Assembly: GCF_013426205.1 (NCBI RefSeq) | Contig: NC_089423.1 | Location: forward strand, 186,001-250,000 | Length of the DNA stretch: 64,000 nucleotides | Reading direction: 5' to 3' | Source of the DNA: Metarhizium brunneum | Taxonomy: Eukaryota > Ascomycota > Sordariomycetes > Hypocreales > Clavicipitaceae | Shown: in pieces, positions 23,656 to 45,714 of the stretch | Numbering within the stretch: the first letter of the stretch is position 1 | How the letters are laid out: each line of letters opens with the position of its first letter | Program-made: the position numbers and the translations under genes | The notes under the pieces: model-generated | What the model saw: only the letters and a program-made list of their open reading frames with translations | What the model was told of the DNA's origin: nothing | Databases searched by the model: none

Positions 23656-24083
23656 TTATAATATTCTTCTTAATTTTCCCCCTTATTTTTTTTTTTTTTT
23701 TTTACTTTTTTAGCTATCTTATTAAATTTATTAACTTTTTTAGTATTCTTAGCCTTTAATAATATATCTCTCTTCTTATTAATATTCTTTGTAATAGTAG
23801 CCTTTTTATTGCCTAGCTGTGTTATTTGTAAAGCAATTTGTTTAAATTAGGTGTATAAAGGCAAAATAAGGTGATTATAGGGAAGATAATAGGCTTTATA
23901 AAAGTTAGGACTTTATTAATTTATATTATATTAGATTACTCTAAGTTTTTTAGGGTATAACTTATATAGTTATAAGTTGCTGTTATTATTATGTGCTTTT
24001 ACTAGTATATAAGGTTATAAATCACCTTTTAAGCTAGTAGATTTAACGTATTATAATATGTGTACTATTTTTTTAATTATATA

Positions 24084-24095
24084 TTACTACCTTAA
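24084..24095. other. Candidate Starship insertion/5' border (TTAC-N7-A)
   Basis: The sequence TTACTACCTTAA fits the TTAC(N7)A target pattern reported for several Starship captains. It lies exactly where the RIP-mutated block gives way to normal-composition DNA, about 440 bp upstream of the DUF3435 start codon. The motif is short and expected by chance about once per kilobase, so position is the main support. Confidence 0.35.
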
Positions 24096-24536
24096 ACAAT
24101 GAGACGGCGATTTCACCACCAGTTGTGGTTGTTTTGCCCACCGAGGCTGGTGGACAATATGCCCAAAATCCAGCGCCGCTTTAAGACCTCGCAGCAACTT
24201 CTCCTGGTGGGGCCATTACATCAGCGCAGCGCCATGTACCTCCAAAGTCCCCTTCTGCCTTGCCAACCATGCCCCGCCGCAGCAAGGCTCGAGCTCTTGA
24301 AGCAAGCCCCTCCAGGCAGGAACCGGACGTCAAGGCTGCTTTCTGGAAACCACTTTCCGGACACCCCAATACGAAGGCACAACCACCAAATATGGCGGCA
24401 TTGCACGGATCGTACTTAAGGGGCACTCACCCCGCCTCAAGGACGGTTGGTAGTGCAGCATTTGTGTTCCTCTTTGCTGCAGACACTCGCCACGCCCAAC
24501 CGACTCGCCACCGCCTAGAATCGGAAGCTTCCAGCC

Positions 24537-27040
24537 ATGACACGTCGAGCAAACTCTTCCGCTCCATCTTACGACTCAGACGCCTCGTACTCCCCTGAGG
24601 ACGATGATGTGGAAGATGAACTCTTTGACCGGAATGGCTCCGACCACTCAGAATCTGAAACAGAGGCGACGGATGTCGAAGATTTAAGCCTTGACGACGA
24701 GGATGGCTGCGACGACATCGACGTCGATGACCAGGTTCAGTTCTTTGGAGGAAACATTCATCCCCCGGAGTACTACCGACACGCTGTTGAGAGTTTCAAC
24801 GAGAGCGCCTACGAAACTCAGGACTACAGCGACGGTAGCTTGCTGCTCCTAGACGCCTGTGAGGAGCAATGGCGCCAGTATGCAACCCGCCATACAACTT
24901 CCTTCTCTTTGCTGGCTGCTAATTTGTCTGCTCCCCACCCTCTAGATACTGCAAAATGCTGGAGCGCGACCCTCAAAGCTGTTTTGAGTCTCTCTCGCAA
25001 TCTAACGCCCTGCCCCTCCTGTATAACTTTTTCGACTGGTCACTGAATCAGAAAATCGGCAAGGACGGAAGGAAGAGGAGAGGAACTAGGAAGAGCAGCT
25101 CCCTGGGCACGTACTGGAAAGTCTTCCGACTCGTCCATGAGAGAGCCACGGGAAACAAGCTTGATCCGAAGCTGAATCGGCGTATGCACAAGGTACGGTC
25201 AATCCCTGCCAACGCGAATGTAAGTGGCTAACCAAGTAGGTGCTCCGAGATCTCGCCAAAAAACATGGCCTAAGCAACGAGAAACGTGTGAATCGTTGTA
25301 TGACAATCGAAGACCTTAAAAAGCAAATTGAGACGACAATCAGCACAACTGAGAAGTCGTTCAAGCTAGGAGAGCTGCGCATTCTTGCTGTTCTATTTCT
25401 CCTCCTCCTCGCACCTGCAGGAGCACGCCCTACGTCCATCTTGCGTATGCGGTTTGGAGATATCCGGCTCGTGCTGGCGAGGGACCCAGAAGGCGGGCCA
25501 CACAATATTCTAATTAGATTCACACTGGCCTTCACGAAGACATATCTTGGGGTCAAAGACGCGTAAGGAGGCCACGACCTCCCTTTTTATCGTTTTCGGG
25601 AACCAATTATTAACATAACATACTGTAGAAAAACTTACCCTATCCCTGAGAATTTGTATGACCCTTCCTTGCTACTTAGCCCGCATGTATTTTTACTTGG
25701 CATTTTGTTCCGTCATCGTGCGTTCCGTGCGACAAGCCTCGCCTCTCCCGCACAGCTGGCTAATCTCGACATTCACCCGCAAGAGCGAGAGTTGCCTCTG
25801 CCGTTGAGGGATGAATTGAAAGAGACACACATATTTCGTCGGGCTGTGAAAAACCTGACTGGTTTTGAGTTATCTCAGGATAAGCCCATATCCTACCAGA
25901 TGGTTGCCCAGTGGATCAGAAAAGTCGGCGAAGTCTTAGGGTTAGAGTATCCCACTATTCCCTACAACTTGCGCTATAACGCAGCAAATGAATTCGACCG
26001 GAGCGGTATGTCCCGACCAATGTCTAGTCATGTACTTCAAGCTTACTCTAGTCCCAGCCGATATAAGCGAGGCGCTGCGAAATCTTGCCATGGGTCATGC
26101 CAATTCGACACCATTCCAGCGCCACTACCTGGGCCGGGAAATTGGCGCAGACACATGGGCTATTCTCCGGCGACAAAAACCACAGCAAGCCTTGATTATG
26201 CAGGCCTGCAGTGTCGGTCACTCGATAAGCAAACGACGGCCCACGGATCTCACACCTGAACAATTAGTATCCGTGAACAATGATGCCCTAATTAAACGGT
26301 TAGAGCGAGACCTACGACGCCATCGTCAGGGGTCGAAGAAGTACATGGAGCTCCGCCGTGAGTTGCGAAATGAGAAGCAAAGGCTGAAGAGACAGCTGAA
26401 GCAGAAGGTTCGGGATGAATGGACCGCCGAACAGGCTGTCGACGACATCGAGCGGCAGTTGCGAGGTGTCGGTTTTGCTAAGGGAGCGGCGAACGCAACT
26501 GTCTCTCCCCAGCGACCAGCTCAAAAACGACTCATGGAGGCTCTCACTGTTCCCCTTGGCAATACACTTGAAGGTCAATATCAGCGAAGAGACAACGCCA
26601 TTAGCGCCATTATGGCTTACTGCGTGGTTGAGGAGGGCCAGACCATCCAGCGCCATACACCCTCTGTCGAGTCCAGGTCGACCTTTATATCTGAACCACC
26701 AGTGAGAAGCCCCCAGCACATGGCTCTGATGTCTGTCTTTGTCAAGAATGAGAAGGAGAGGCCGAGAAGGTGCTTCATTTGTGTTGGCAAAGCACTCACC
26801 CTGGCTCCTGATGACGTGGCTGTGGAGGGCCTCGTACGTCAGTTCTATACTCCGGGGGACCTAAATAAGCACTTCCGTCGAAGCCATCTAAGCAATATGC
26901 AAATGGATGAGAAGATAGAGTGCACGGCTTGCTCCATACCACTCGAACATAAGCAGCACTTGCTGACCCATGCTCAAATAGTTCATGGGATTCATCTGCG
27001 TCATCAGCAGCATGTTGAAACCGATGGGATTGTATTTTGA
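24537..27040 (+). CDS. DUF3435 tyrosine recombinase (Starship captain type)
   Basis: Five exons: 24537-24877, 24946-25192, 25240-25562, 25629-26005 and 26058-27040; 756 aa. The N-terminus is acidic. The DUF3435 core spans about 170-470: helical SAM-like region (YWKVFRLVHERATG), box I GARPTSIL with Arg259, box II YNLRYNAANEF with Arg419, and the terminal GHANSTPFQRHY with candidate nucleophile Tyr453. A basic coiled segment follows (residues 490-540). Two C-terminal zinc fingers use C668/C671/H701/H706 and C718/C721/H734/H739. DUF3435 enzymes cut and rejoin DNA through a phosphotyrosine and mobilise Starship giant transposons, normally from the first, inward-facing gene. All five exons join in frame with catalytic residues present, so the gene looks functional. 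It faces the cargo region to its right. Confidence 0.87.
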
Positions 27041-27426
27041 CTCAGTTGCACTTCTGTTATTCAATCTATTTGACTGACTTAGATAGTTAAATCATCTCAA
27101 TGCACAAATTTCCTTGTCAGGTTACCCTTCTGGGCCCTTATTAAGAATTAACCCTGTGTTGTACCTGTGTTCACGGCACGCGTCTCTGTGTGGGTTTTGC
27201 ACGTGCCTGAATTCCCGTTAATTGCTATCGCCAGTCATATTGTATCATTTAGCCTAGCTTAATCGTTACTATCACTGCGATCTCTCGTGACTCTTGTAGC
27301 GTGGCTTGCCACTACGACTCGGCTGCTGTCTTTCCAAATGCACCTTGCCAAATCACTGGAATGGGTTCTTCCAATCTCGTAATTTAAGACTGCGCACTCA
27401 GAAAACTATTAGTTTGTTGGTCCTCT
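27041..27426. other. 3' flank of the captain
   Basis: Contains TTTTGCACGTGCCTGAAT and TATTGTATCATTTAGCCT, which recur near 34965-35090 downstream of the captain relic. This conserved 3' segment was therefore duplicated with the recombinase. Confidence 0.6.
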
Positions 27427-28760
27427 TTAGTCCTTTCCGTCATCTGCCAGCCGCTTTCTGATCTCGTTAGGAGACGGCCTGGAACGCCTTGCTTCTGGGC
27501 CATGCGGCTGCCCATCATTCCTTGGCTGTGACGGAAAACTTTGTTTACTTTTATGAGCCTCGAAGACTGAAGACGTGCCGGCTTGAGAACGGACAGGATT
27601 GCCGTGCATCGCTCCAAACCGACTGTTATAGCGCTTCTCAGCCAGGTGTTGAATAGTCTCATCTGTCATTGAACCAACCAGCTGCGCTGAATTGCCTTGA
27701 GACAGCGCTTTCTTAACATCAAACAAGTCCGCCAAACTCGTTACCACCACTTGATCGCTGTCACCGTCAGCAACAACTTCCCCAAGTCTGTAGATTTTCT
27801 GGTGTGAAGCTTCTCTAGCCACCTTGCACACCTCTAAGCACTGTTTGGAAATGTTGATGTCTTCCTGCAGGCGTAATCTCTCTTCATCCCTTTTAGGGCT
27901 GTCATCCAAGAGAAGAGTCTCAAGTCGTTCTTGAAGGCGGTTGCTAATTACCGCTAGGCTGTCTCGATTTTTATCCAGAGCTTGGCGTGTTAGCAATTGC
28001 GCTTCAAAGCATCCATGACCATTGTCACCCCCGTTTTCGTGTGCTTCCTGAAGCAAAGTAGACTCCCGGTTCGCCAAGGACTCAATAAAAGACTTTGCAT
28101 CGTCACAAATACGAAGACATTGTGTAGTCACAGCTCTCTCGTCCTTCAGGTCAACCGTTACGTCTGAGGTGCTTGAATCCTCGGCTGTGAGTTGCGCCAT
28201 CTTTTCATCTATCTGGCGCAAATGGAGCTCAAGATTATATGCTGTGTCATGTATCATCTCGTTGTATTGTTGAAGAACTTGGTGGGAAATCTTTGATGTG
28301 TGCCTGATTTGAAAGATGTCAGCAGAGTCTGCAGTAAACAAGGAAATGTGACTAACATAGTAATGGTGCCCAAGCCGACTGAGATTGTTGACTTGTACCC
28401 AGAGATAGTGTCTATAAACTCATTGATATCCCCCCTCATAAACTCCATCTTGGTCCAATCCAGGAAGCCTGTCTTTGACTTGCTGGTGAAGACCTTCATT
28501 GATTGCTCGAACTCGCGACACACCTGGCTGCACCGGTTGAGGGGACCCTGTAGAAGCACCATCATCGATGTCTCAGTATTGATTGCTTCCTTCAGCGAGT
28601 TCAAAATATTCCCGAGATCTTCAAGCTCATCCTGAAGTCTGCGCAAAGTCTTGTTACGATCTTTGAATCGTTTGACAGCTTCAAAGAGTGAATTCGTCGA
28701 CTGAATGGCAGCTGTAAGAACAGCAAGTACAGAGACACTTATACTCAAAGGGTCCGCCAT
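27427..28760 (-). CDS. HeLo/STAND-N-like protein with shared C-terminal module
   Basis: Two exons on the minus strand, 28760-28357 and 28303-27427, with a 53-nt GTTAGT...ATCAG intron and CTGAC branch site; 426 aa. The N-terminus (MADPLSISVSVLAV...) is the hydrophobic first helix of the fungal STAND N-terminal/AzpL-type domain, followed by helices (residues 1-140) and then a long coiled-coil-rich region (about 145-300). Residues 305-355 carry a conserved block (Q319-VVVTS...Q342-LVGSMTDE) also found in four neighbouring genes. The tail is basic and Pro-rich. Family members act as N-terminal modules of NLR cell-death systems; this one has no NTPase domain. The start at 28760 was chosen because it begins the conserved helix. 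Transcribed divergently from the PNP_UDP gene. Confidence 0.75.
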
Positions 28761-29636
28761 TCTTGACTTATGGTGTCGGTGCTTCCTCGGTGACAGAAAT
28801 TGCGAACGTGATAGATATCGCCAGGAGTAAGGGCAAGGTCTCAAAATACCTGGTGTACGTTCAGTCGACTTGACCGTATTACGATCGACCGAGGTGATTG
28901 CAGATTATTTTGGGTGGAATGAAATAAAATTATAATGATACTAGTTTTGTACCGACATAAAGACATGAGGACATGTACCTGGGTTTAAAGTCTGCAGAGC
29001 GCAAATGACTTCGAAAGGGTATATCCCCGCAGGCGTTCTTGCTGACTAGGGGAGGATGAAGGAAATGGTTTCCCAGGGGGATTGCACAAATGGCTGGCGC
29101 GCTGTTACCCACATGATTGCGGAAATGGCGGGATTATCTAGCCCTGCTGCCAATCACACGCACTCAGTCGGTCCCATACAGGCGGCAAAATCTGGAGTTA
29201 GATGGCTTGAGCTAACGTTCGACCCGCAAACCTTTCAAGTGGTAACGGTCTGTTTCATCAAGCGCCGAATGATGGCAAACAGGCGAAACGTAATATACGA
29301 CCAGGCCTCCTTAAAATGAACCTGTAATGCCATCGCCCAATCATTCGTCTTGTCATGCAGCTACTCGTATAGCCAAGGCCACCTAGTAATTACTACGGCC
29401 TATGGCTGCAGAATGCCGGGTCACGTGTAGTTGACGAGTCTGGTTGGTCAACACAAATGCTGACTCTGATGCAACATATCCCGCATCGTCAGCGTGGTAG
29501 AAAGAAAGCAGAGCGCTGTCGCTGCCGCAATTTAAGCGAAGTCAGATCTTTGTTTCGATCAAGGCGCGATCTTTTTCTTTTTTTTCTTCTTTTTTTTTTC
29601 AATAATATACCGTAATTGAATTCATTTTGGAGACTG
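28761..29636. promoter_or_regulatory. Shared intergenic region between divergent genes
   Basis: An 876-bp region separates the start codons of the STAND-N-like gene (minus) and the PNP_UDP gene (plus). A T-rich tract (29574-29600) directly precedes the PNP_UDP start. No other gene is supported here. Divergent layout suggests coordinated expression, but this is inference. Confidence 0.4.
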
Positions 29637-31043
29637 ATGGAAGAACGGAGGGATATTAGAAGAAAGAGAGGCCGACGAAACGCCAAACGGGAAAGCGGGG
29701 GCAACAATGCACCGCACCCGAAGACAATACATTACCGAAGACAGAGACAAGATGAAGTCATCAGCAGGCTTGGACGGCATGGCCGACATCAAAATACTAT
29801 TGTTGTACCCCATGACCAGTATCACGTCGGTTGGATCTGTGCATTGTCGGATGAGTTGGCCGCTGCTTCGAGCATGTTGGACGAGATTTACGAGCGCCAT
29901 TATCAGCCTCGCAGCGACACCAACACCTATATTCTAGGAACTATTGCTGAGCACCGTGTTGTTATGGCGTGTTTACCTACACAGGGTTATGGGACAAGCA
30001 ATGCAGCGGTTGTGGCTACGAATATGCGACGAACCTTCCCTTCGATTTGCTTTTGGCTGCTGGTTGGAATCGGCGGCGGCGCCCCCGGCAAAGTTGACAT
30101 CAGACTTGGTGACGTTGTTGTCAGTACCAAGGTAATCCAGATCGATCTTGGAAAAATTGTCCGGGATGGGCAATTGCATCGAACAAGTGTTGTTCGCACA
30201 CCATCCCAGAGTCTTATGACAGCCATTGCTGCACTACAAGCAAGGCACAGAAAATCGTCAAGCAAGATATCCGGATTCATCTACCAAATGCTGAAGCGTG
30301 ATCCAGGTATGGAGGGATTTTCGGATCCTGGTGCCGATTCGGATCTGCTGTTTGATAGTAACCACGAACACACTCCTCAGTTGATGGATAACTGCAGTCT
30401 CTGTAACATGTCGCGACTTTTGAGGCGGAATACACGTATTAATAGGGACCCAATTGTCCACTATGGGACTATCGCCTCTGCAAACCAAGTTATGAGAGAC
30501 GCAAAAACAAGAGATCGACTAATGAACGAATTGGACATTCTATGTTTTGAGATGGAGGCGGCTGGCTTGATGGAAAGCTGTTCAAGTATGGTCATTCGCG
30601 GAATTGCCGACTATGCGGATTCCCACAAGAACAATCGATGGCAATGCTACGCCGCTGCTACAGCCGCAGCATACGCCAAAGAACTTCTTTCAGTCATACC
30701 ATTGGCAGAGAAGTCAGGGACGGAAGTCCAGCGCGGTATGCAGAGAACACACCGCGTCACTGCTCGCCATTCTCACAATACCCCCTCAGTTTCGCGTGGA
30801 ACCGAACAAGTTCATAGAATTAAAGGAGTCAAAGCAGGTGATGATGCGAACCAGATGTTTCTGTCAAATGGCACTCCGTTGCGTATTGAAAAGGCGACCG
30901 TGCGAAACAGGGGGTTTCAGCTGTTTGGTGATATACCATTGCAGGACGCCTTGAAAATTTTAGACAGGAAGCATAGTACTGGTACTGAGGAGGCTTCAGA
31001 GGAAGTCACAGCCAGCTCAGCCGGTAGTTCGGCTGCTATATAA
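29637..31043 (+). CDS. PNP_UDP (nucleoside phosphorylase-like) NLR-type protein
   Basis: A single exon of 468 aa from the ATG at 29637. The first ~60 residues are basic and poorly conserved. The PNP_UDP domain starts at HVGWICALSDELAAA (about residue 68) and includes the GIGGGAPGK glycine-rich loop, LGDVVVST, the FEMEAAGLM purine-site motif and the VIRGIADYADSHKN end motif. In fungi this domain is a frequent N-terminal effector of NLRs, and bacterial and fungal relatives act on purine nucleotides. No NACHT or NB-ARC domain follows. Instead residues 394-445 form the module shared with neighbours (RIKGVKAGD...Q406...Q428-LFGD). The Ser/Glu-rich tail ends 55 bp before a convergent small gene. 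Confidence 0.83.
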   Translation: MEERRDIRRKRGRRNAKRESGGNNAPHPKTIHYRRQRQDEVISRLGRHGRHQNTIVVPHDQYHVGWICALSDELAAASSMLDEIYERHYQPRSDTNTYILGTIAEHRVVMACLPTQGYGTSNAAVVATNMRRTFPSICFWLLVGIGGGAPGKVDIRLGDVVVSTKVIQIDLGKIVRDGQLHRTSVVRTPSQSLMTAIAALQARHRKSSSKISGFIYQMLKRDPGMEGFSDPGADSDLLFDSNHEHTPQLMDNCSLCNMSRLLRRNTRINRDPIVHYGTIASANQVMRDAKTRDRLMNELDILCFEMEAAGLMESCSSMVIRGIADYADSHKNNRWQCYAAATAAAYAKELLSVIPLAEKSGTEVQRGMQRTHRVTARHSHNTPSVSRGTEQVHRIKGVKAGDDANQMFLSNGTPLRIEKATVRNRGFQLFGDIPLQDALKILDRKHSTGTEEASEEVTASSAGSSAAI

Positions 31044-31098
31044 AGCATCTTCCCACTATTGTTGCCATCTTTAATATAATACCGAATTACCGTAACAT

Positions 31099-31464
31099 TC
31101 ATTTACTGCTCGATTCATTGTCTGATTTCTGCGGACCCAGCGTAAATCCACCCCCATACCTTGTCCCAAATGTAGTAGTGCTTCCAGTAGGATCTCGGCT
31201 TGCAGTCGTTTGACGACTGTTAAGAAATTTCGAGAGTTCCGGAACTGATGATTCGTCCCAAGCCCCGATCACTTGCCAAGAACTCGTTCCGGCTTCCACA
31301 TTTTCCGCATCGTAAACGTGATCTTTCGTAGATACCAAGAGTTGTACGCTGTAATCTCCGGCCTTGATATCTTTCAGACGATGTGTCGGACGCAATGTAG
31401 GGTCGGTTTCCTCTGCTGCATCCATTTCTCGATCAGAGTCCATCGCCAAGTTGGATCGGGTCAC
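31099..31464 (-). CDS. Small protein made mostly of the shared C-terminal module
   Basis: An open frame of 121 codons, convergent with the PNP_UDP gene. A start at 31443 (MDSDREMD) is an alternative. Residues 28-83 (HRLKDIKAGD, Q41-LLVST, Q64-VIGAWDE) align with the ends of the PNP_UDP and STAND-N-like proteins, with the same 22-residue spacing between the two glutamines as most copies. The rest is an acidic N-terminus and a Ser/Thr/Gly-rich tail. It may be an adaptor, a decoy, or the last exon of a larger eroded gene; I found no convincing upstream exon. Confidence 0.5.
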   Translation of the reverse strand: MTRSNLAMDSDREMDAAEETDPTLRPTHRLKDIKAGDYSVQLLVSTKDHVYDAENVEAGTSSWQVIGAWDESSVPELSKFLNSRQTTASRDPTGSTTTFGTRYGGGFTLGPQKSDNESSSK

Positions 31465-33227
31465 CGATTTGATTCACGTTTGTTGAAGACGGGGTTACTG
31501 AAGCAGAAAAGGGGGATGTTCGCTACCCTTATGGATTTCGCTTTGCGTTTGTGAGGTGCTGGATGGTAAACTCCCTGACTGCGAATCTCCTATTCTTCCC
31601 AGGAGGGGGGTAAAAGTTGCACCTGGTCAGTTTTGATAGGTACTCCGCGTGACGGTAGTGGGAACACCAGGCCAAAAAATGTCCAATGCCAGCCTGAATA
31701 CGCGACCTCAAAATGCCGCTAGCAGAGTGGAGACATTTGACGGTAGCTGCCTCAGCCCCATCCAGCTGGGCTGGACCCGTCACGTCTCCTTGGAATCATT
31801 CCTCGCATGTCCTGCTCAATGTATCCAGAGGTATTAATATAACGGCCCTGAAGTCTACAACTGCTGGGTCTCCAACTGCATTTATTATCATATTGTCTGG
31901 TTCTGTTTGGGGTGAAGCTTGGATTTGTCTCTAGGATGTGGGAATAGGTCACACGCTCATCGAGTAAGCGTCGACCTGCAGGATCTCCCCTCACTTTGGG
32001 AGCAACAGAGCATCAGGACTGTGGACACCACCAGTCCTTTTTGAGCAGCTCTTCCTAAGACTAGCAGTCGCTGCTGCCTAAAATTTGTGCCATGCAATAT
32101 CGCCGGACGCAACATTAACGCTATAACTAGCTGCAATCGACCCTACACATTAGCGAATCTCTGCTGATAAGCTAAACCAGGATTTGAGAGTCTGAAGGGC
32201 TTTGGGGCCATTGCTCATGAAGCAATCTACTGGGACCAGTGTTGGAAAAGGCAAGATTGCCTTCCGCCTGTGTGAGTAGTGGGCTTACGCCAAATTGTTC
32301 CCTGAGACTCGTTTGCTCAGCTCTCCGAAATAGTGCCTTTCGCTATTGTTATGTGCAAAAACACCTTCCTTTTTCCAACGAGCTATGCCAGTTGCTAAGC
32401 CTCTGATATTACGCAGCGTGCAATAACCGAAGGCTGTTAATCAAAACCGACTAGTCCATTTTTCGCTTGGTAGGTGTTTGTGGGTGTAGTTGACGGGTCT
32501 CTATGAAGGCATTAGTGACTATGCCCGGCGGTCCCGCTGGAACCATGAATACTTAAGTGGTGAAAAAGAGAATTGGGCCTGGCTGTGCGGCCAGGGCTAC
32601 AACTTGCCCCGGCGTATGTGATCTGGTTTTGAGAGCTGGCATTAAAAACGCTTTCCGCTGGTCCTAATAAATAAGTTCGCCTCTTGAGCTAGTCCATCAA
32701 CGTGGCTGGTTCCGAGAATCGGCCTCAGCATACCCCATGATCCACCACCAAGGCGGTGGCGGATTGAAAATATGTACTGGTTGCGGCACATAGGGAGGCG
32801 TCGATCAAAGGCGTCGTTCGGGGACAAGGACAGTCGACTATCGTTCTTCTGTACGCCCGATCTTGATACTGATTGATTATTCTCCATCATTTGTGGTGGC
32901 TAATCTATTGAGCGTTAGCTTAGCGCTAAGATTTAATGTACACAGCTGGTTAGTCTCGAACATATTGGCAGTTGAGTTGGTCAGCCACGGGCATGACATG
33001 ACACCCTCCGATCCCCCTCACCTCATTGTGGGGATATCTTGGAATCAGGATTGGGGACAACATACAGTCGGACCTCATGTATAAAATAACTTCCAAATAC
33101 TTTTCAGCTTGCCACGGCTTCTGTTCCGCCTTACGGTTGACTTGTATCTGTTTGCATCACTCATGCGCTCTACCACGGTACGTCAAGTGTTCTGAAAATC
33201 CAAGGCTGTACTAATGCAGCTATTTAG
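31465..33227. other. Gene-poor interval with a PNP_UDP relic
   Basis: Frames are broken throughout. One stretch near 32500-32560 reads LYEGISDYARRSRWNH, matching the RGIADYADSHKNNRW end motif of the intact PNP_UDP gene. A second, decayed PNP_UDP gene therefore once stood here. Confidence 0.5.
32500..32560 (+). pseudogene. PNP_UDP domain relic
   Basis: The peptide GISDYA...RWNHEY is the last conserved block of the nucleoside phosphorylase-like domain. A TAA follows within a few codons and no upstream motifs are readable in frame, so only a fragment survives. Confidence 0.5.
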
Positions 33228-33857
33228 GAGGTTGAATATCGATCTAAGGAATTTGAGGCAAATCCACAATGCCTTATAAAAGAAAAACAAAATGTAGTCA
33301 CTGCGTCTCAAAAAGAGGAGTCTGTGAATGAAGAAATTGGGGTGCAAGAGGGTCTAGAAATATACACCCAACTTGTTCATCACATCAACGAGATGCATCT
33401 TGCACTCAGCAATCTACAGGTGCGCGGACCAGCCTCAGCATTCCTGTTGCTTCAAACCCTGGCAGGAGCCTTGTCCAAAGCTATCATAACACAATTATAT
33501 GACAAAGAACAGGATGACAAGGTCAAGAAACCAGAAAAACAAAAGACTCGCCCTTGTGGTACCTCAGAGGGCAGTGACATCGAATCTCGAAGTTTACTCA
33601 GCGACGGATGCAATCAGTGTGTGTCGCGACAAGACATCACCTACAACGAATGCGCGCATGTTGGTGCCGCAGAATGCCGCGTCCATGTGATCAAAGATAT
33701 TAGTATGGGCCATGATGGGAAACAAATTTTTGTGGCTACTCTTGGTGAAGTATTCGATGTTAGTGGAGTGTCCGCTGAGAACAGGGCGACTCAGCTTATT
33801 GGATCAATGTCAGATACTGCGTTGCAAGAGTATTTCAGAGCGCAGTCAAACCAGTAG
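33228..33857 (+). pseudogene. 5'-truncated relative of the STAND-N-like gene
   Basis: The frame is open from a plausible acceptor (TATTTAG, 33227) through 33857, about 209 codons; the first ATG in frame is at 33324. It encodes a charged helical region and ends with the shared module (VIKDISMGHDGKQ-IFVAT...Q-LIGSMSD), closest to the 27.4-kb gene. The hydrophobic N-terminal domain expected upstream is missing. It may be a truncated gene copy or the final exon of a gene whose first exons are lost. Confidence 0.55.
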
Positions 33858-34337
33858 CAAATATGGCTATTAGCTTCGGTTGGCAGGAGGCAATTTGCTG
33901 AGTACTGGACCCGTTCTGTGCTGTTGTTCAGCTATCAGACTGGTTCAAAATTGCTGGGTCCCACAATTCAAATAAAGTTTGGCACGTTTGACCAGGCGCC
34001 ATCACAGCATAAGAATCGATCCACGGTGAAACGTCGTCACGAGGCTAGAACCCATATCGAAACTTGGCAGCCGGTGGAGATACCTAGCTGGATGTGTGAT
34101 TTCGCATTCCCAAACAGCATGATTACTGAGTCTTCCGGTAATTATGGGATCTTCAATAACATGGAAGCTGGAATCTTGTTGCTCCGGAAGGATGAACCCG
34201 GACAGGAGGAGAGTTCGACAACACAGTGGCCAGCTCGCCGTGGCTGGTGTGCCAGGCAAAGATGGCAGAGAGGCTCCAAGGTCATTTCTGATCCAACGAC
34301 GGACCCATTGCCATCGTCAAGGGAGGCATGTCGTGTT

Positions 34338-34460
34338 TATCAGTCCAACGCTGTGCAGCTTGTCGGGTCATTCCGGTCCGCAAGACCTGACGATCTGGAA
34401 CTAATGCGCGTAAAAACTGGCTTCGTATCTCTACCTCTTCTGAGGTCAAATGCCGTGTAA
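34338..34460 (+). pseudogene. Second fragment of the shared C-terminal module
   Basis: The peptide SNAVQLVGSFRSARPDDLE resembles the distal half of the module (AQLVGSMTDETIQ and TQLIGSMSDTALQ). It ends an open frame running from 33918 that otherwise shows nothing recognisable. Confidence 0.35.
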
Positions 34461-34699
34461 CGAAGGAGTCGAAAACGGCGGCAGCACATCGTCCATCGTT
34501 TCGAAAAAGGACATGCGGAGAGAGACATCAGTGGCGCGTGCAGGTGGCGTTTGAGTGCGTTGTGGGTGCTCTCAACGGCGCTTGTCGCTATGCATCAGCC
34601 CCACCAACCACTGTATCTTCAAAATGACGGTGCATCGATGTTCACAGTCCACACACCGTTGTGGGCTTACACTATTACTTGAATGGAATGTTTAATAGG

Positions 34700-35095: not shown

Positions 35096-35210
35096 ACCTA
35101 GTTCATGAAAATCCAATATCGCCGTCTATACGAGCTGTCACATCCGGGCCAGCGCGCAGGTCTTGCTCCAGCTATACGTGCCGGGTGGATCGATGTTTGA
35201 AGACTTCTCC

Positions 35211-37290
35211 TCACAGAAGAAGTGTATTCGTGGGGCATGCCTCGAGAAATTCGGCGTGTCGATTGAGAAGCTCTTCAAGGTCTAAGTCCCGCTGTAGGTC
35301 TGGAAAGTAGAGCTGATACGGACTCTCGTTGCCATTTGTCAATAAGGCTCTGCGCAACATGAAGCAGTCATCCGCGAACCTCCCTCGGCACGAGAAATCT
35401 CCGTATGCTAATAAACGGAGAGACGCAACCCCGTTGGGCCCGAAAGCCCAATCCGCAAACTGGCGAAGGTCATCAGACAAGATTGTCGCGACAAGGATGT
35501 TCTGGTTGTTAGCCACGTCTGATTGCCGAGCCACCCACCCTAACATACCATCTTCGCAGATCTCCTGCCGACTCAGGCCCGAGCAGTCCCCAAACAAAGT
35601 AGCATCATCTAATTAGATCTGGCTGAAGACCAAAGATCCATATTTCCTAATGTCTGGCCCTGACTGCCTGATATGCAGGACCTGTAAACTGCCCTTGTGA
35701 GACAAGGGCTCTATAACCTCTTTCTAAATCCATATTAGATACTGCACACTCGACGTGACCAGGGATAAGAAGAGCAAATACCAATCGGCGAGGATCACAC
35801 GCCAGCCCGATACATTCGAGATACAGCTCACCCAGTGGGTTTGGGGACTGCTCAGTGAACCAGGCATCACCTTCAAACTTCATTTCTTCGTCAGAATCTT
35901 CGTCGACACTTCTCAAGTGAGCCAGAAACGAGTCACTCAACAGCGCCATATCATTCAGGTCCATTTCCTCTTCAAATAGCTCGGACTCATCGTCAAGGTT
36001 CACGCTTCTGGCGTGGTAAATGAACCGCCGGAGAGTTGCCTTGTGTCGCACCGCCGTTCTCCACAAGGCCTTTGTATCTGTCGGGCTGGGCAGGGAGAGA
36101 TAAAGGCTCTCTAACCCGCTAATGCTCTCCAAAAAGTTTCGCAAAACCTCTTCCTCATTCTCGGCTACAGCCATCAACCCGACTGGCTGATATATCTCCA
36201 GTGACGTTATATTAAGAGCATAGTTTGGTTCTATCAACCGTTGCAGAAACAGCTCCCAGCCAGGGCATCGGCGAATAGTAATTGACCGCAGAGATGCAGT
36301 ATTCACAGCATAAGCAACTCCACAAGAGTGTGATGTTAGATCAAGGCCAGACAGTGACAGGTTTTCCATGGCAGGAAATCGGAGTTTAGTTGACTGAGGG
36401 CGTACTCTCAATATGAACCTGAAAAAGTCTGCAATATCATCATCCATTTCATCCCAGTGTTCCTTGACTAACTCCCAGTCGATGAAATCGAGCTGTAGGG
36501 CTTCCAAATGGTGGGCATTCTGCCGCAGTGCTAGGCCAAGTGCGATGAAGTCAGAATATGTCCGTAGTCCTGTCCAAGAAATATATTTTAAGGATTTCAG
36601 CCCCTGGAGGGCGAGCGCCGGGCTCTGGGAATTGAGCGCACAGTTGGCATCTGTCACGAGGCGGAGATGCTGAATGCGATTCTGATGGGTTAGGACATAG
36701 CCACCTTGTCCGAGAAGCTGTTGAGGGACACATACGCCCATGTCCCAGCTGCCATCGCTGTCAGTTACAATCGGCCATGCGGCCACGCCATGACGTACCT
36801 GGATTTCTGAAGTCTTCCATCTTGGAGCTTCTGCAAAATGGGCAAAATGCGACTGCCAAGCAGCTGCAGCGAAGAGCGATCTTGTCCGTTATCATCGTGG
36901 TCCATTGTCATATGCACCTCCTCATCGTCAACGTCATCGTGCACGCAGCGGAGCCTTAATCTTTCAGAAAACGGGGCTGATATCCGTAGGTTGGTTACAC
37001 GTGCCAGGAGGTCGCTCGATCGTTCGGCAGCTCGAAGTAACCCTTCCACCTCCACCTCATCCAAATAATGCTCGTCGGGAGCTCGCAGGAGGACTTCATG
37101 TGTACCATAAAGATGCGCCGCTGCTAGAACATAAAGAGCCTTCGAGGCCTCACACAAGCTTTTGAGATCACGCTTGTCTCCGATCTGCTTTGCTTAGCTG
37201 CCATCCGTAGATGGACCAATGACAGGTAAAGGGATTAAATACATGTTCAATAATGCACGACAGGATTTCTGTCGGCAAGCTCAAAAGCAT
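35211..37290 (-). CDS. F-box/leucine-rich-repeat-like protein
   Basis: Minus strand: exons 37290-37243, 37184-36799, 36748-about 35718 (or 35682) and 35608-35211; about 620-632 aa. Exon 1 opens with an F-box (MLLSLPTEILSCIIEH) that continues in exon 2 (IGDKRDLKSLCEASK). LRR-like segments follow (LEALQLDFIDW, MENLSLSGLDL, LRSITIRRCPGWE, LESLYLSLPSP). The last exon carries the FADWAFGP...LLAYGDFS block and the LEACPTNTLL ending that I associate with this fungal family. The final intron donor is uncertain: GTTATA (109 nt) or GTCCTG (73 nt) both join in frame, and without splicing a TAG follows at 35647. Likely an SCF ubiquitin-ligase adaptor; the target is unknown. Confidence 0.72.
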
Positions 37291-38050
37291 CTTATCCGGG
37301 GTAAGATTGACTAAGCTGGCCTGGTTGCATAACTTGCTTACATTCAAACTGGGTATTTTGGTGTAAGCTTAGCCGCTCTGCGAGAGGCAGATGCCTAGAT
37401 TTATATACCAACAGAGCGGAGCCCCATGTACGTTTTGTCATGTGACTTATGTGAGGTCATGCTGGAAGTTTATGAATTATGTCCAAACCTTCGATCTGGA
37501 AGATTCCTCTTTCTTGATCTGAGCACGTAATACCACGATACAACTGTACGGCAGCCTTGATGGCCGTTGTCGTTTATGCGATCGGCCACTGTGTCCTGAA
37601 CCAGGCTACAAATGGTCCACTAGGAAAGGCTTCCATAAAGGACGCTAACCCACTCTAGCTGCTCTGGGACAACGATCTCTATTCATCAGAGAGTACACCG
37701 TGGGCTTGTCGGCTCAAGCCATTATTCATGCGAGCCCATCAGCCTGCGCCACCCGCTGCGTGGCACATTCGGCACAAGCCAATTTTCGCACAGGCTCAAA
37801 AGCCAGCGCCGGGCTGGGCCGTAGCTGTCAAGCCTACTCGAATATCCGCTTATGCCTTCACCTTCACGCCAAGTTACTTGGGCGTACCAAGGCATCCGCG
37901 CCAACTGGCCTTCGACACTCAGCTGACGCTAGGATCAGCACATAAAAGTTTGCCTCCGAACAAAGCAAAACAGGCCAAGCGGCCTCATCATAGTACCTCA
38001 CAGGCGATTGGAAGTGCGCTCATATCAGTCGGTGCAGCTTCGTCTACGCT
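37291..38050. other. Intergenic, no gene recognised
   Basis: Only short overlapping frames without motifs. It separates the 5' end of the F-box gene from the 3' end of the DUF3723 gene. Confidence 0.55.
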
Positions 38051-40856
38051 TCAACGCCGTCTCTTAACTCTACTGCTATCTTCTTCCTGGTGTCCTCCCT
38101 CACCTGGTAGTCTCTGTACCACAATCGTGTGAGTGCCATCGTCAACAACTTTGCGAAAACAGTCTGTTGGGTTCAATTGGTTACGCTCCTTATCAAATAA
38201 ATAGTACCCCTTCCTCATATAGTCCCTTGCCATCCGCCTTACGCGCTCCAGGTCGTCCGGGTTTGCTGGATCCACTATCAATGGATCAGAGATCACAAAG
38301 CTATCACCAGATTCTACATCCACAAAGTCAATACGAATCGTCCGTTTTCGCTCGGCCCCATCCGCTCCAGCTTCTTCTGCAACAATCGCCAATGCCTCCT
38401 GGTGTTCCTTGTTGGGGTCATGTGCCACAAGCTCTTGGAAGTTGAATCGTGTGTTTCGATCTGTTCGTCGCAGCACAATTTGAGTCTCTGCTCCTTGTCC
38501 CAAGCCCGCCGATAAGACCTGCCTCGAACCGTCGGCTGCCCCAGCGGGCGACTCGGGTGCTGGCTCTCCATGCTCTTCTGAGATGACTTCAGCAACCTCC
38601 CTTTGTCCATGATCTAATTTACTCTGCTCCAAGTGTACCATTGTCTTTAGCCGAGTCAACTTTTTCTCCTCCAAGATTACATCTTGTCGTAATCCATCAA
38701 GCTGCACGTTCCGGTCTAGAATCTGTCGATTGATTTCGTCTAGCCGTTCCTGAAGCGACGCTTCGTCTTGTGTCAACTCCTCGAGTTTCGATTCCTTGTC
38801 CCTCACTCGACGAGATATGTCACTATGCCTCGCTTGCTCCAAATGAAGCTCATGTCTTGTTATGGCCAAAATTACGTCCTCTTCGGTTACCGTCGTCGGC
38901 CTACTGCTGTTTCCAAGAAGTTCAGGTTGCTCACTGATAGGCATACAGGGGATCATCGCTACGTCGTCGTTCCTGCTAGCATCGTCGCTAGTAACAGGGC
39001 TTCCTAGAGGCGGTGGCGCTCCAAAGTACGCGCAGTAAACAGACCGTCGAACGAACGTCGACGTCATCTCCCTCATCTCGCTATAGACGTCGGCATGCAT
39101 CTGCGGCAAAAAGAGGCGGGTTTTATCGTATCGGTAATCGGTGTCGTTCGGTCGCCCGCATCGTTGCGGTGGCCGCTCGTGCTCTCTTACTTCGTCTTCT
39201 GTCTCAAGTAGTGCTTTGCTTTCAGAAGCTGGCACAGCAGCCGCAAAAGCATCTACTATTTGTTGTATGCATGCCTCTGGATCTCGAAACATGTATCGCC
39301 CAGGCTGGCGGGCTGCGAAAAGCGCCTGTTCAGCTACCTTTCGGTCGGAAGATGTCTCCAAGATCTCTTCGAGCTGGTCTGATACAAATCCAAGTCGCGC
39401 AGCGAGAGACGCAAGCTCGTGTAGAACTGTTTCGTTTGCCTTGGTTCGCGATACCGCCAGAAGGTCCTTCTTTTGCGTGTCGGCTGGCAGCTCTTTGTAG
39501 TTGCGAAAAGCCGCCAGCCATAGCTGGCGTATCCCAAGGTCCAGCCGAGTGTTGATGTCTCCTGCCACGCTAGTGAAGGTTGTCTCTGACAACTGAATGA
39601 TGCATTGGTCCTCCCTTTGGTTCGCATTGGTGAAACGTTGGTTGAGCACACCAGTTACGGTGTCGTCGGGCCCCACGTGCAGTATCTTCTTGATGCAGCC
39701 GGCAGCATCATTCAGAAGTTTTCGGTCCTCGAAAAAGGTGAACAGGGACGGGATGAGACATTGTCTGGAAGAGCTGCAGACTCGAGACCAGATTGCTTCA
39801 CGCTGTGGGGGAGAGAAGTTCTCGAAAATTTCGCCACTCCGTACCTGTGGTGAAAGGATCCGGTGGTCAGCGGAACAGGCCCCTGGCGCCTTCCCCTCTA
39901 GGGCCGTGATGGTGCCTCGCGTAATCTGTTTCATGGCCTCCTGATCGCCATCGCAGACGTCACGCCACCATCTGTAGATATGGTTCAAGTATGCAAGGTT
40001 CGGCTAAGCCGATGTAAGCATTTGAATTAACAAGCGACTTTACATGTACACTACCTCATCACACTTCATGCCTATTAGTTGGTGTATGGTGCCCAGTCGG
40101 AAACTGCCAAACAGTCCTGGAATTGCTAGGAGAGTGTCAAAGGCGGGTCCGTACTCCTTGTGCTTCGAAAGTTGGTTGAAGAGTCTTTTTTTGTTCGCGT
40201 TTGTTGCAAGCCTGCCCAACCATAGGTTTTCGAAGAAGGGGTTTTTCTCGCCACCGTGTCCTTGAAACTGCCTGATGGTAACGTAATATTCTCCGTCATC
40301 CGGCGCCTTCTGATAATCGTAGCCATCCGTGAGTAGAAGTCGCAGGTCATCACTAAGATCTGTACCATATTAGCATAGATCACTTGCCTCCCTCGGCACG
40401 CGACGTACCATCGAGATATAGATCAACGGTCCATCTCTTCTTAGAGCCTTGCAGCACCTTGTCGGCCGCCGCAAGTCTGTCATGGCCCTCGAGGCACTCT
40501 ATCTTGACGCCAGTAGGGAATTCCAGTTCCGGGTACGGTAGAGCATCCCTCATGAGGCTGGAGCTTGGAATTGAGGCACGAGCTACTGCCGCCTCTAGGA
40601 CCTGCTGGGGGATAAGAGCCTTGACATGATGGCGGCTGTCTTCTTTACGACAGCCACGTTCTTGGCGAAACATTCTTTTAATAGCGTCGACATGGTTGTT
40701 TTTAGAGCCTGTAGCCCCATCGTCCGCTGGGTCTCGATACTGCAAAGATGCTATGCTTATGCTTGCGGTTCCACAGTACTTGGCTCGTCGTTCCTCCTCA
40801 ATACGACGGTTTACAGTTGTAAAGTTCTCTACAACCATTGTCATAACCATTCCCAA
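38051..40856 (-). CDS. DUF3723 protein
   Basis: Three exons on the minus strand: 40856-40409, 40359-40055 and 40003-38051; 901 aa. The N-terminus reads AKYCGTASISIASLQ and continues through the family's LEFPTGVKIECLEGHDR and WTVDLYLD blocks. Exon 2 supplies DDGEYYVTIRQFQ and the PGLFGSFRLGTIHQ block. Exon 3 gives YLNHIYRWW, FRNYKELPADTQKKD and the RCGRPNDTDYRYDK segment. A long coiled coil (about 625-725) and a C-terminal IRIDFVDVESG...DPANPDDLERV domain complete it. DUF3723 is one of the accessory families repeatedly found as Starship cargo; its function is not known. Three nearby upstream ATGs (40856, 40850, 40844) are all possible starts. The 196-bp gap to the pseudokinase gene is a bidirectional promoter. 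Confidence 0.87.
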
Positions 40857-41052
40857 AGAAAAAGACTGGATGATGCCGAAAGCTCGCTAAGTATCTGCAG
40901 CCTTCTTCTTGTAGCCCTAGTGATGTTCACAATATGTCCAATTATGGCCGCTGCAACTGACTTTGGCCTATTTTGGACGAAAACTCGGCCTGCCAGTTTA
41001 TAAACCGGCACACTGGTTCCCATCAGGGCAACGGAGTCCAAGGTAAGACAAG
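40857..41052. promoter_or_regulatory. Bidirectional promoter of the DUF3723/pseudokinase pair
   Basis: Only 196 bp separate the divergent start codons, so both genes must draw on the same region. I see no clear TATA box or repeated operator-like motif. Confidence 0.5.
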
Positions 41053-42044
41053 ATGTCAAACACAGTAAATCGACTCCAGAAACGCCACGCAAACCGTATT
41101 GATCCGCTCAGGCTCGTGGAGACGAACCGACTCGGACGTCGGGCCATGGAGATGGTCCTCGTGAAGCCCAATTCACCTTGGGATTATTACTCGAAGATTT
41201 ACAGTCTTAAACTGGGCGAGAACGAGCCGGTTATTGTTGCTGAGAGGAAAGGTGGTCCGTCTTTTGACCTGGTGTCGGTCCATCCGTGCCAGGACCTCAG
41301 CCAGAGTCAGCTTGAACTGCTCCGCTCGATACAACACGCAAACTTTGTTACCGTACATGAAGTTTACAATGAACAGGATAAATGGTATATAGTTATGGAA
41401 CATATGACACGTTCCCTACAAGAGGCTGTCGGAAACCCTTTTCTTGATAGCTCCAAGCTCGCCGCCATTATAGGACAAGTACGTGTGATGCAGCTCCGGT
41501 AATGCGTACCCTGACCGTTACTAGATTGTCACGGCCTTGGGCTATCTCGAAGATAAAGGACTACGCTTCGGGTCACTCACTTGTTCCGACGTACTACTGC
41601 ACCCCAGTGGGAGAGTCAAATTATGTGTGTCATCCGTATTTTGGTCTGAAAAAGAGCTAACACAAACACCTCAGGTAGACAGCACCATTGCACGCAATCG
41701 GATTCAAAAGATGACATACGACGCCTCGGCAACGTCATGATGGAGCTGATGGATGGTTATGTCAAGGACGGTGCCAACATCGGTATTGACAACCCGGAGC
41801 GATGGAGCCCCGAAGCCTTACACTTCCTTGGCGCAACGACATCTGCTTCGTCGGCGAAGGAGCTTCTACAGGTATGCATACTTCCCTTCTCCTGAGGTTG
41901 TTTCCTAACCAGAAGCAGCATCCCTTTCTTCATTCGTGGCAGAAAGACAAACTTCAGGGTCTTGTGTCTTTTGTGACGACATGGACTAAGCAGAGTTACC
42001 GTTATCTTGGGTGGCAGGATAGGCAGGCTGAAAAAAATCGTTAA
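41053..42044 (+). CDS. Protein kinase-like (pseudokinase) protein
   Basis: Four exons: 41053-41478, 41525-41624, 41675-41871 and 41919-42044; 282 aa. The fold order of a kinase is visible: VIVAERK (possible ATP lysine), an HANFVTVHEVYNEQDKWYIV strand pair with MEHM hinge, and a helix IVTALGYLEDKG. The catalytic-loop position reads LRFGSLTCSDVLLHPSG in place of HRD...N. No DFG motif follows, because exon 3 begins RQHHCTQSDSKDDIRRLG. A C-lobe with HPFLHSW ends the protein. The missing Asp residues argue for a pseudokinase or a strongly divergent kinase. Its divergent pairing with DUF3723 suggests that the two work together. Confidence 0.75.
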
Positions 42045-43965
42045 TCTCGCGATGTGCGCCCTATGGATGTGACTGACAGTGGATTTGGTACTTGATTGAA
42101 GTTATTTATAGGGGAAATTCGTCCGTGGTTATTGAGGTGCGGCAATTTGTTGCCTTTGCCAATTCAGCTACTGCTAGCTTTCAGCTCCCGTAGTCATCAC
42201 TCGTTGACAGTTGGTGTTTCGTAGGTATTTAGTGGGTGAGCATGTCTATGAGGTGGCCATGTTGCGCCATCAGGTATAGGGTAGGACACATTACATCACG
42301 AGCTGTTATACGTTGTTTGTGACGGTAGGTTCATCCGTAGGTTGGCCGCCGTGAGTCCAGAAATGGCATTTAGAGGTAGCTGGGACAATATTGAAGAACA
42401 CTTGATTCCCATGTCGAAGCAAAAAGCAGCGCCATGCATGGACCCACATAATCCCAACTAAAGCATCAACGAAGGCGATACAATCCAAAAGTGCTCCTCG
42501 CATCCTAAGCAAGTTACGGTTCAGCGACAAGTACTCCAGTTCTCCATTTCAACTGGTAAGTTTGCAGACCCACCACACCATATCTTGTGTGGGTGGAGTG
42601 TGAAGGGACCTCCACCCGGCCAGGGACAGGGCAAGGCTGAAGGACAAGGGGTAAGAAACGGCTGCCTTGCGGGAAAGCCTCCCGCGAAGCCGCCGACCAG
42701 CCCCCCTGCTTTTGGATCAAGTGGTTCCTGTGCAAGTGGGGCGGCAGCCTTACTGAGGTCATTTTCGGTTTTCCCGCCACCCCGTTGCCAATGATGCTGG
42801 AGAGTTCTCCGTCCGCGCGCCCAGTATTGCGATTGTCTGACCGCATTCACTTGTACTCACCTTAAGCCGTCCATTGGATGGCACTCCTTCCATTCGTTCA
42901 TTGCGACTGCCCTACATTGCCTTGCGGAAATATCTTGCTGTCATGGGTTTAATCCCCATTTCCATATGTAACCACGTAACATTGTAGTGCCTCTATGAGT
43001 TTTATTTGGACATCATGTTAATAGATATTTGATATCCTGCCGTTTTAATAGTACCCTGTTTGGTGTCGAAAGCGGTAGTGGAGGCTGAACAAGAACTCTT
43101 AGTCGTGAGCTTGTTCCTCCGTAATTGTGGGGTGCGATTTCCGACAAATCTCTCCGTGAACTTGGGCACAGGATGTCGAAGCCCATCCTTACGCCGTTTG
43201 TAAATGTATGCTCACTAACGAAACTGGTGGGCTGTTGGCAGTCCCGCTATGTATAGTAATGTACATGTCAATACATTACCGGTACAACATTAGTGTTATT
43301 AACACGGCGTTGGTGTACCAGGTCCGATTTCATCCCAAGAGGAACGGCAACACAGGCCCAGGGGGGGCGGGGGTATTTCGAAGAATTGTGAGGAGACCAA
43401 AAAGCTGTTTTTGGCTTGCCGCCGATGCAAACCTGGCCTTGGCATCCCCACTAAAGAGTCGTCCCCAAAGAGTACTTTCTTCTTGGCTCTTCCTCCTACT
43501 GTGTATACTTTGATTTACTTTGGCAGCACAGGTGCCAATATTCAGGTGAGATAGAGCTGCTTGCAAGAGACCCCCATGTGGGAGCACGTAAACCTCTAAT
43601 GGCTGCGCCAGCTTTTGCTCAGTCCCCGTTGTATCTAACGCCCTTCAACACCATCATCAGCCATTCTTCGCTGCAGAACCAAACAGCCAGTGAAGACGGC
43701 TTTAGCGGTGTACCGTTCAGCCAAGCTCGACGGCGAACTCGTCCTGGCTTTGGACTAGTGCTGTTGACACTTACTCCCTTCAGCTTTGGAAAGCATAGGC
43801 TGCAGCTCGATGGAGGGTGTGACGCCTGCCATAATTTCTTCTCACAGCGTCTCCCGTGCCTTGGCAGAGTAAAAGCCCACGACCAGCAGTCACGTACATT
43901 TATCACGTTGGGTCGCAGTTTATTTTTAATACGAAACTCAGCCAACTTTCTGTGTGTTTTATTGA
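42045..43965. other. Intergenic, no supported gene
   Basis: Contains a GC-rich patch (42580-42780) open in both directions, without domains, and scattered short frames. Nothing splice-consistent or family-like was found. Confidence 0.5.
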
Positions 43966-45714
43966 TTACGCAGGTTGATAATCTAATTCTACCAACTCAA
44001 CTCTGTCGTCGACGTGCCTTTGCACGATGGCTTGCAGGTCTTTCCGTACGCCAGGGGATGCCGCAACTTGGTCTGTTAGTCATAATCCCAAAATTGGTGT
44101 TCCAATATTACTTGCCTGTGACAATCATGTCGCCTCGCGTAGAGGCTTCCGCCTGTACCCGTTTGATGTATTTTCCCTCAACCTCTTCTCTCATTATAGA
44201 GCACCAATCGGGCAAGCCCTTGATGACTTCAGCCCTTGGGCTTATTTTTTTCTGCCTATCCACGCTCTCGACATACACAGATATCTGCAGAATCTTCACT
44301 CCAATAAGCACTAAACCTGGACAAAAGGGCAAATTTGCTTACATAACCGTTGTCCAGCGTGTCATCAACAAGCGCGTTGTTCAGTAGACTTTCAATTGCA
44401 ATCGCCAAATCTGCCAGTATGAGAAGTTGTCACATGTATGGCAAACGCAACTTACCAATTGTTTTCAATTCCCAAACAAGATGTATACGGCGAGACCGTG
44501 CCTTGCGGCTGTTGTACCCGTGTAATAGCTCCTTGAGATACGGCAGTTGCGCAGCGATCCCATACCCGCTAGCGACCATTAGGACGACCTCGTAGTCGCC
44601 AACTGGAATGCTATTGCCATGTGGCCCGCTGAAGAGGGCACGGCAAAGATCTTGTCGTGTCTGGCTGCGATGGAGAAGGTGCCGGGTGAATCCCGTGCGA
44701 GGCTCGATCAATAAATCCAACGTATCGAGAGGGGCGTCAGACCAAGATGCCACCACAAATGGATGATACTCAATGAGAGCGTGGAAGCTTGTCGACGGTA
44801 TGAACAGCCAAAGACAGATGTACTGGCCAGCCTTCACACGGACCGGACGGGATAGGACAACTCTGACGAGCACGGCGCCTTTTGCGTGCATAATATCGGC
44901 GCGAGGGAGCCGAGAACGAAAGATGCCGTTGCGATAAATTACGAGAAGACCGAGAAGCATCACGGAGAGGCCGGCGATCCCAACTAACACATATACATGG
45001 AGTCGAAGGAGTAAGCGCTGTGGAGCGATGTGCACCCAGATGCCGTACACCGATACGATCGCCAGACACTGGTGAGCGCGGACAAACATTTCGTACCATC
45101 GATATCTGATTACGGGGAGACAAATAGCTACAGAGATACCAATAGACGCTGCTGCCTGAAATGCCATGGTCAATTGTCTGTGGTCAGCCGCCAAGACATT
45201 GACCTAGACTCACCACGATTGCCCATTTATTCTCTGCATTTGCAATAGCGAAGGGAGCCTGTGAAAACGCAAACACAACGATGTGAAAGATGAGTAACAA
45301 TCCAGTCATTATGCCCACAGAACCATGGAGTCTGCGAACCGTGCGCAACCGCAGGCCAAGAGTATTGGTCAAGGCATCAAGGTGTGGTGTTGCGCATAGA
45401 AAGATGAGATTACCGATGCATATGTCAGCCGCTCGTCGTCCTGCTGCAACAAAAGAGGGGATTCTGAAGCAGACCGAGAACACATTGACTCCCAGGTAAA
45501 CGACTTCTGTCAAGACGTCAGCACGGCTCCATTGCACCTTGAAACGTTGACTATGGACAATGGTTTGGTAGGACAAATGCTTCAATATAGGTTTGCGCAG
45601 GGAAGCCCCTAAAGCTCTCAGTCTTGACCTGAAATGATAGCCAAGGAGAGCGAGCGCGACTCCGAAGAGAGCCAGTGAGTAGGCGATGATGACGCAGTCT
45701 TCGAAGGATGCCAT
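43966..45714 (-). CDS. Ferric reductase (FRE/NOX-type)
   Basis: Five exons on the minus strand: 45714-45214, 45155-44456, 44410-44343, 44293-44116 and 44072-43966; 517 aa. Several membrane helices come first. The paired haem ligands are H130/H144 (RLHGSVG...FHI) and H195/H209 (RAHQ...WVH), each 14 residues apart as in ferric reductase domains. The FAD site follows as YHPFVVASWSD and the NADPH site as SGPHGN with VLMVASGYGIAAQLP. The C-terminus is rebuilt over three short exons (ILQISVYVES, KGLPDW, then VRKDLQAIVQRHV). The last intron appears to be GC-AG (GCAAGT...CTAACAG, 43 nt). The enzyme moves electrons from NADPH through FAD and two haems to extracellular Fe(III). Ferric reductases are a hallmark Starship cargo family. 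The protein is shorter than many and lacks an obvious signal peptide. Confidence 0.85.

Follow-up and report, generated by a model that had tools for sequence, protein, structure and literature searches.

Does the abrupt rise in GC content near position 24,084 of the stretch analysed here mark the edge of a Starship giant transposon, and if so, where does such an element end? The stretch (the window) comprises 64,000 nucleotides of chromosome 2 (C2:186,001-250,000, contig NC_089423.1) of Metarhizium brunneum, a representative of the insect-killing fungi used for insect control. A preliminary description made from its letters alone had proposed a Starship opening with its captain, i.e., a DUF3435 recombinase. 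We searched the 37.77 Mb genome (7 contigs, referred to as C1, C2 and so on) and read the sequence around the locus over C2:150,001-370,000, continuing the window numbering past 64,000 where needed (extended coordinates). We are highly confident that the locus is a complete Starship of 91,975 bp on the forward strand, at extended 24090-116064 (C2:210090-302064), with its left part (24090-64000) in the window and both ends located. The proposal is borne out by a captain at the 5' end, hallmark cargo, direct repeats, an empty site in the same genome and two more intact captains with related termini. As C2 opens with telomere repeats, the locus lies ca. 210 kb from the telomere.

GC content amounts to 5-18% over approximately 17.0-24.08 kb and to ca. 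50% from 24.09 kb onwards, and a second abrupt edge, back to AT-rich DNA, is found at about 116,062 (extended coordinates). The 6-bp direct repeat TTACTA is present at both borders, the 5' copy (the target-site copy, forward strand) at 24084-24089 and the 3' copy at extended 116065-116070 (C2:302065-302070). The 3' border at extended 116,064 (C2:302,064) is outside the window, as is the matching 3' repeat that the preliminary description had advised looking for, and its expectation that the element reaches past 45.7 kb was correct.

A dispersed AT-rich repeat supplies the left flank (23500-24090) as a single copy; the flank has 86 matches, many of them reaching query base 590 (i.e., 24089), where its homology to this repeat stops exactly. 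Homology to the same repeat resumes at 116065 and extends over the initial 94 bases on the right side, and from about 116,159 the flank consists of another, high-copy AT-rich repeat. Among the matches listed, at least five besides the flank's own copy begin at 116065 (query base 11 of the right-flank search). In two copies elsewhere, the left and right matches overlap by exactly 6 bp: on C6 the left match reaches 85,404, with the right one beginning at 85,399, and on the minus strand of C3 the two meet at 2,777,107-2,777,112. When the flanks were joined at a single TTACTA and aligned to four fetched repeat copies, all four proved continuous through the junction (C4:4,470 kb at 84%, C6 and C3 at 80% each, C4:4,473 kb at 78%). 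As a control, 300 other AT-rich arms of 90 bases from the neighbourhood were substituted for the true right arm; the identity of the latter was 0.93 (C6), 0.97 (C3) and 0.91 and 0.92 (C4) versus a control maximum of 0.70-0.72, and none of the 300 equalled it in any copy. The core of this in-genome empty site is TTACTA in three of the four copies. Given that four repeat copies run uninterrupted across the junction, the insertion corresponds to 24090-116064.

The first gene of the element is the captain (24537-27040, forward strand), an inward-facing DUF3435 tyrosine recombinase with its ATG 447 bp from the left border, in agreement with the earlier account of an intact, right-facing DUF3435 gene some 450 bp inside a sharp composition change. 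From the ATG at 24537 to the stop at 27040, its five exons (24537-24877, 24946-25192, 25240-25562, 25629-26005 and 26058-27040) were spliced by hand across four GT-AG introns, yielding 756 amino acids and no internal stop, and two of the exon open reading frames (ORFs) match the DUF3435 profile (E 1.1e-39 and 8e-37). The catalytic residues had been described as intact, and the presumed set (R259, Y416-x-x-R419, H443 and Y453) is indeed conserved without exception in the 22 aligned sequences, among them the captain itself. A PDB sequence search with the captain returned nothing below E 0.7. Its fold is predicted to be Cre-like, the AlphaFold model of the deposited 719-residue form aligning to Cre. 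This deposited protein of Metarhizium brunneum (G6M90_00g030440, 'uncharacterized protein') is 100% identical to the captain over 92% of the query, and differs from it at the C-terminus (window ca. 26817-27040), where the window frame runs on through a cysteine/histidine-rich segment to 756 residues. Because of this difference the splice form of the captain is unsure.

DUF3435 matches were found at no fewer than 11 loci of the genome (at least 17 matches). Three further captains of the same family are also situated ca. 0.45 kb inside an AT-rich edge, at C4:655.3 kb (sister A), C4:792.5 kb (sister B) and C6:4,150.2 kb, and share the terminus CTA[C/G]CTT...GACGGC...CACCACC. The captains of A and B have 460 and 468 of 756 residues in common with the one described here, and the C6 captain carries the marks of repeat-induced point mutation (RIP), with 37 stops in aligned positions. 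A fifth homologue at C7:2,434 kb is damaged, has no recognised terminus and is placed in DNA of normal GC content in the 3.5 kb examined. A search for the terminus pattern gave three perfect matches, namely A, B and the C6 copy, and three with one mismatch, one being this element and the others (C1 and C5) lying in normal or high-GC DNA without an AT-rich edge; two of the two-mismatch matches that were examined likewise lack such an edge. Overall the pattern was matched 204 and 187 times, the reversed control 108 and 102 times. As a DNA query against the genome, the 5' 317 bases of the element matched only themselves.

The 5' terminus of the element (24090-24145, forward strand) carries an inverted repeat, short and imperfect (GACGGC... 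and TGGTTGT-TTTGCCCACCG), whose counterpart appears in the 3' terminus when read as reverse complement; its score was reached in 4 of 1000 shuffles (40 of 1000 for sister A and 82 of 1000 for sister B). Searched against the genome at E up to 1, the 3' terminus matches two further sites, C4:517,099 and C4:917,598, positioned and oriented to close A and B, respectively. Judged from these ends, A would span about 138 kb (C4 ca. 517.1-655.3 kb, minus strand) and B about 125 kb (C4 ca. 792.5-917.6 kb, plus strand). Both sister spans contain two DUF3723 genes with near-equal scores. The sisters resemble the element in captain homology, in related 5' and 3' termini and in the DUF3723 genes inside, but differ in that their captains cluster among other Metarhizium captains, unlike this one. 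Elsewhere in the genome, DUF3435 and DUF3723 matches are paired at C1:9,036-9,059 kb and C7:2,512-2,538 kb, ca. 21 and 24 kb apart and with equal or near-equal scores; judging by these scores and spacings, the two pairs are probably a duplicated element of another family.

The grouping of the captains comes from a tree (IQ-TREE) of 42 rows, i.e., 39 of the 119 other matches listed, this captain, A and B, without labelled reference captains. Captain A groups with captains of M. humberi and M. anisopliae and captain B with M. acridum; B is very close to one M. acridum captain. The captain of the window groups with Tolypocladium, Hirsutella and Beauveria at moderate support (93/82), the Beauveria row being a long branch of unsure placement, and is set apart from the five remaining Metarhizium rows by a branch at 98/98, with all six coming together in 0% of 200 bootstrap trees. 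For the main exon of the DUF3723 gene (650 residues), identity reaches 91% with a protein of Pochonia chlamydosporia, 83% with a second protein and 82% with one of M. majus. These affinities fit horizontal acquisition and cargo exchange, and old paralogy with losses could also account for them. With its captain placed outside the other Metarhizium captains, the element lends itself to testing whether such elements move horizontally between parasites of insects and nematodes.

Crypton-type DUF3435 elements belong to the same recombinase superfamily; they are small and without cargo, unlike the 92-kb cargo-bearing element described here. Starships (Hephaestus, Horizon, Sanctuary and others) are characterised in the accessible parts of PMC12506042 and PMC9594970 by an inward-facing DUF3435 captain as first gene, a short direct repeat, an empty site and DUF3723, ferric reductase and NOD-like receptor (NLR) cargo, and our element shares with them the position and orientation of the captain, the border repeat, the empty site, the large size and the hallmark cargo. 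Several observations nevertheless count against a complete Starship. The empty site consists of paralogous repeat copies in the same genome and not, as in the superfamily, of the orthologous site in another strain, and the core of its fourth copy is TTATTT. TTACTA is common in AT-rich DNA, where its density in RIP-like sequence is 1.78 per kb (both strands) versus 0.36 per kb in the element (ca. fivefold), so the direct repeat taken alone would be weak. The inverted repeats, a common though not universal feature of Starships, are short and imperfect, and for sisters A and B an exact 6-bp repeat was sought without success (5' TAACTA in A and TTACTA in B, 3' ATACTT in both). Lastly, patatin-like phospholipase, a common but not universal hallmark family, was not seen in the 54 distinct stop-to-stop ORFs between the borders that were covered by the Pfam scan, many smaller ORFs and exons being left out.

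The preliminary description had placed the 5' border near 24084 at a site of the type TTAC(N7)A; the position stands, with TTACTA at 24084-24089, while the motif has to be abandoned as the target. PMC12153272 assigns TTAC(N7)A to Hephaestus as its target; in our case all four copies of the unoccupied site have T at base 12. As the motif occurs 69 times on the plus and 66 times on the minus strand of the window, its presence proved little. Table 1 of the same paper gives A(N3)TTACTA(N2)A(N15)CT as the predicted target of Janus h2 and h3 (Phoenix family, Aspergillus fumigatus), the 6-base core of which is identical to that at both of our borders and in three of the four empty-site copies, whereas the outer positions as listed there do not match this site at the given spacing. 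An A. fumigatus captain, not known to be that of Janus, is 39% identical over 98% of ours. By its letters the target appears Phoenix-like in the core only, and we assign the element to no family. In Sanctuary (Bipolaris sorokiniana), the available portions of PMC12506042 and PMC9594970 describe a 6-bp direct repeat, a Cre-like captain and the core ATWHCT, and the former reports a constant 3' and a varying 5' repeat and suggests that the element carries the 3' repeat along. The 6-bp repeat and the Cre-like captain are paralleled here, as is the constant 3' repeat by the sisters with their differing 5' copies, but the core ATWHCT differs from TTACTA. Because its ends are known exactly, its captain is intact and the same genome contains two relatives with related termini, the element is a direct substrate for studying core recognition by the captain.

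We infer that the captain, as a Cre-like tyrosine recombinase, would have cut the element out of another site, probably in circular form, and that insertion would have proceeded by recombination across the 6-bp core TTACTA within an old RIP-mutated dispersed repeat, an event that would leave TTACTA on both sides. With the captain as the presumed active enzyme, arrival may have been by horizontal transfer or by movement within the genome. We do not favour, but take as a serious possibility, that the element landed in this manner and no longer moves, e.g., with a captain silenced in heterochromatin or with decayed ends; the RIP-like AT-rich surroundings, the deposited captain model with its other C-terminus (719 versus 756 residues, splice form unsure) and the lack of any copy of the captain region above 71% DNA identity elsewhere in the genome are in line with such a fate, whereas the captain frame, its presumed catalytic residues, both ends and the direct repeats are all intact. 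It is very improbable that the 92 kb overstate one transposition unit by combining a smaller Starship with the right terminus of a second, older element. The closest relatives of captain (Tolypocladium and Hirsutella) and DUF3723 (Pochonia, 91%) do differ, and nested insertions do exist (a Gypsy element, see below), but there is no second DUF3435 match between both borders (among the matches found, C2 has a single DUF3435 locus), the 3' terminus is related to those paired with same-family sister captains and the two flanks restore one repeat. Hardly credible is an ordinary gene-rich stretch of chromosome between two AT-rich islands with the captain as a stray gene near the edge, since, even though the surroundings are a mosaic of ca. 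50% GC and AT-rich blocks in which an abrupt change of composition is by itself nothing unusual, the two borders interrupt a single repeat unit at an identical base, overlapping by 6 bp, four copies are continuous and related termini recur beside other captains.

A complete Starship embedded in mutated repeats raises the matter of its age. RIP, a defence of the fungus itself directed at repeats, acts on duplicated sequence. The flanks have RIP-like indices (TA/AT 1.31 and 1.22; CA+TG/AC+GT 0.15 and 0.08) and the interior of the element does not (0.70-0.75 and 1.22-1.27, respectively). We considered the unmutated interior as a sign of youth and rejected it, as RIP needs duplicates and no close copy of the first 10 kb of the element was found in the genome. 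A pair of Ty3/Gypsy gag-pol elements in opposite orientation precedes the window (C2:161,559-167,818 and C2:172,301-178,560), with open frames and 0 differences over 6,260 bp. Their identity suggests very recent activity, and RIP seems to be inactive on this pair at present; the existence of such an unmutated pair nearby is another reason not to read youth from the absence of RIP inside the element. A further Gypsy element is nested in the Starship at extended 86868-93442, and its identical 152-bp terminal repeats indicate a recent insertion, which dates the Gypsy and not the Starship.

All four left ends found for this family adjoin AT-rich DNA, and the element can serve for asking why Starships land there. 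One idea is that RIP itself creates the landing sites of the family, old AT-rich mutated repeats being rich in TTACTA; we regard it as rather unlikely, its probability having been lowered by the damaged C7:2,434 kb captain copy in DNA of normal GC content. If true, RIP would direct giant elements to mutated repeats that contain no genes and in which their insertion is largely harmless, and, given a captain that groups apart from the remaining Metarhizium captains, a horizontally acquired ship would rely on the same landing code.

With respect to cargo, the STAND-N/PNP, DUF3723 and ferric reductase genes that the preliminary description had reported in 24084-45714 are present, while its "NLR-type" label is justified there for N-terminal domains only, as no NACHT domain was found in the 20 distinct scanned ORFs overlapping this interval. 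The PigL_N (STAND N-terminal-type) gene has at least two exons (27430-28904, minus strand; PF17111, E 2.5e-52 and 9.2e-18) and is followed by a gene of the PNP_UDP phosphorylase superfamily (29616-31040, plus strand; PF01048, E 2.5e-13) and by the two-exon DUF3723 gene (38054-40886, minus strand; PF12520, E 1.5e-94 and 1.2e-25). The ferric reductase gene (44433-45918, minus strand) matches PF08022 (FAD_binding_8, E 7.3e-7) and PF08030 (NAD_binding_6, E 2.1e-5) over 44433-45203; its Ferric_reduct domain is below the cut-off, and the ORF at 45187-45918, which has no Pfam match, probably belongs to the same gene. A PIF1-like helicase ORF (47717-48877, plus strand), with matches below the Pfam cut-off (PF21530, E 3.7e-5; PF05970, E 1e-4), is possibly a Helitron remnant.

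Complete PNP-NACHT-ankyrin genes do occur in the element, outside 24084-45714, at extended 66499-70499 (minus strand) and 76144-80201 (plus strand). The ankyrin array of the second consists of 11.9 copies of a 99-bp unit with 90% matches; such arrays are expected of fast-evolving recognition receptors. Further to the right are an ORF with a weak chromodomain match (extended 80.9-82.9 kb) and a BCS1-like AAA protein (84.9-86.2 kb), and, beyond the nested Gypsy element and all on the minus strand, two fungal kinases identified in the Pfam scan (97051-98735 and 108176-110761), a Zn2-Cys6 factor (99554-100612) and a GHMP-kinase gene (ca. 104003-105115). No drug-resistance gene was seen among the 54 element ORFs scanned.

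A literature search, which covered few subscription papers, retrieved no report of a Starship in Metarhizium. In the accessible parts, PMC13066641 deals with Metarhizium accessory chromosomes and, separately, with Starships in Tremella, PMC12289983 names Metarhizium twice, at least once in its reference list, PMC11708051 has Starships in its references only, and the word Starship is absent from the M. brunneum genome papers PMC7842015 and PMC11457142.

A protein search with a flank ORF, intended to establish synteny through locus tags, gave nothing at E 1e-100; as Pfam yields no match for it at E 0.001, this ORF may not be a gene. Outside the element, a NACHT-ankyrin gene lies at window positions 2266-4557, left of the AT-rich block, and a subtilase-like ORF (C2:306,423-307,139) is located just right of the right-hand AT-rich block.

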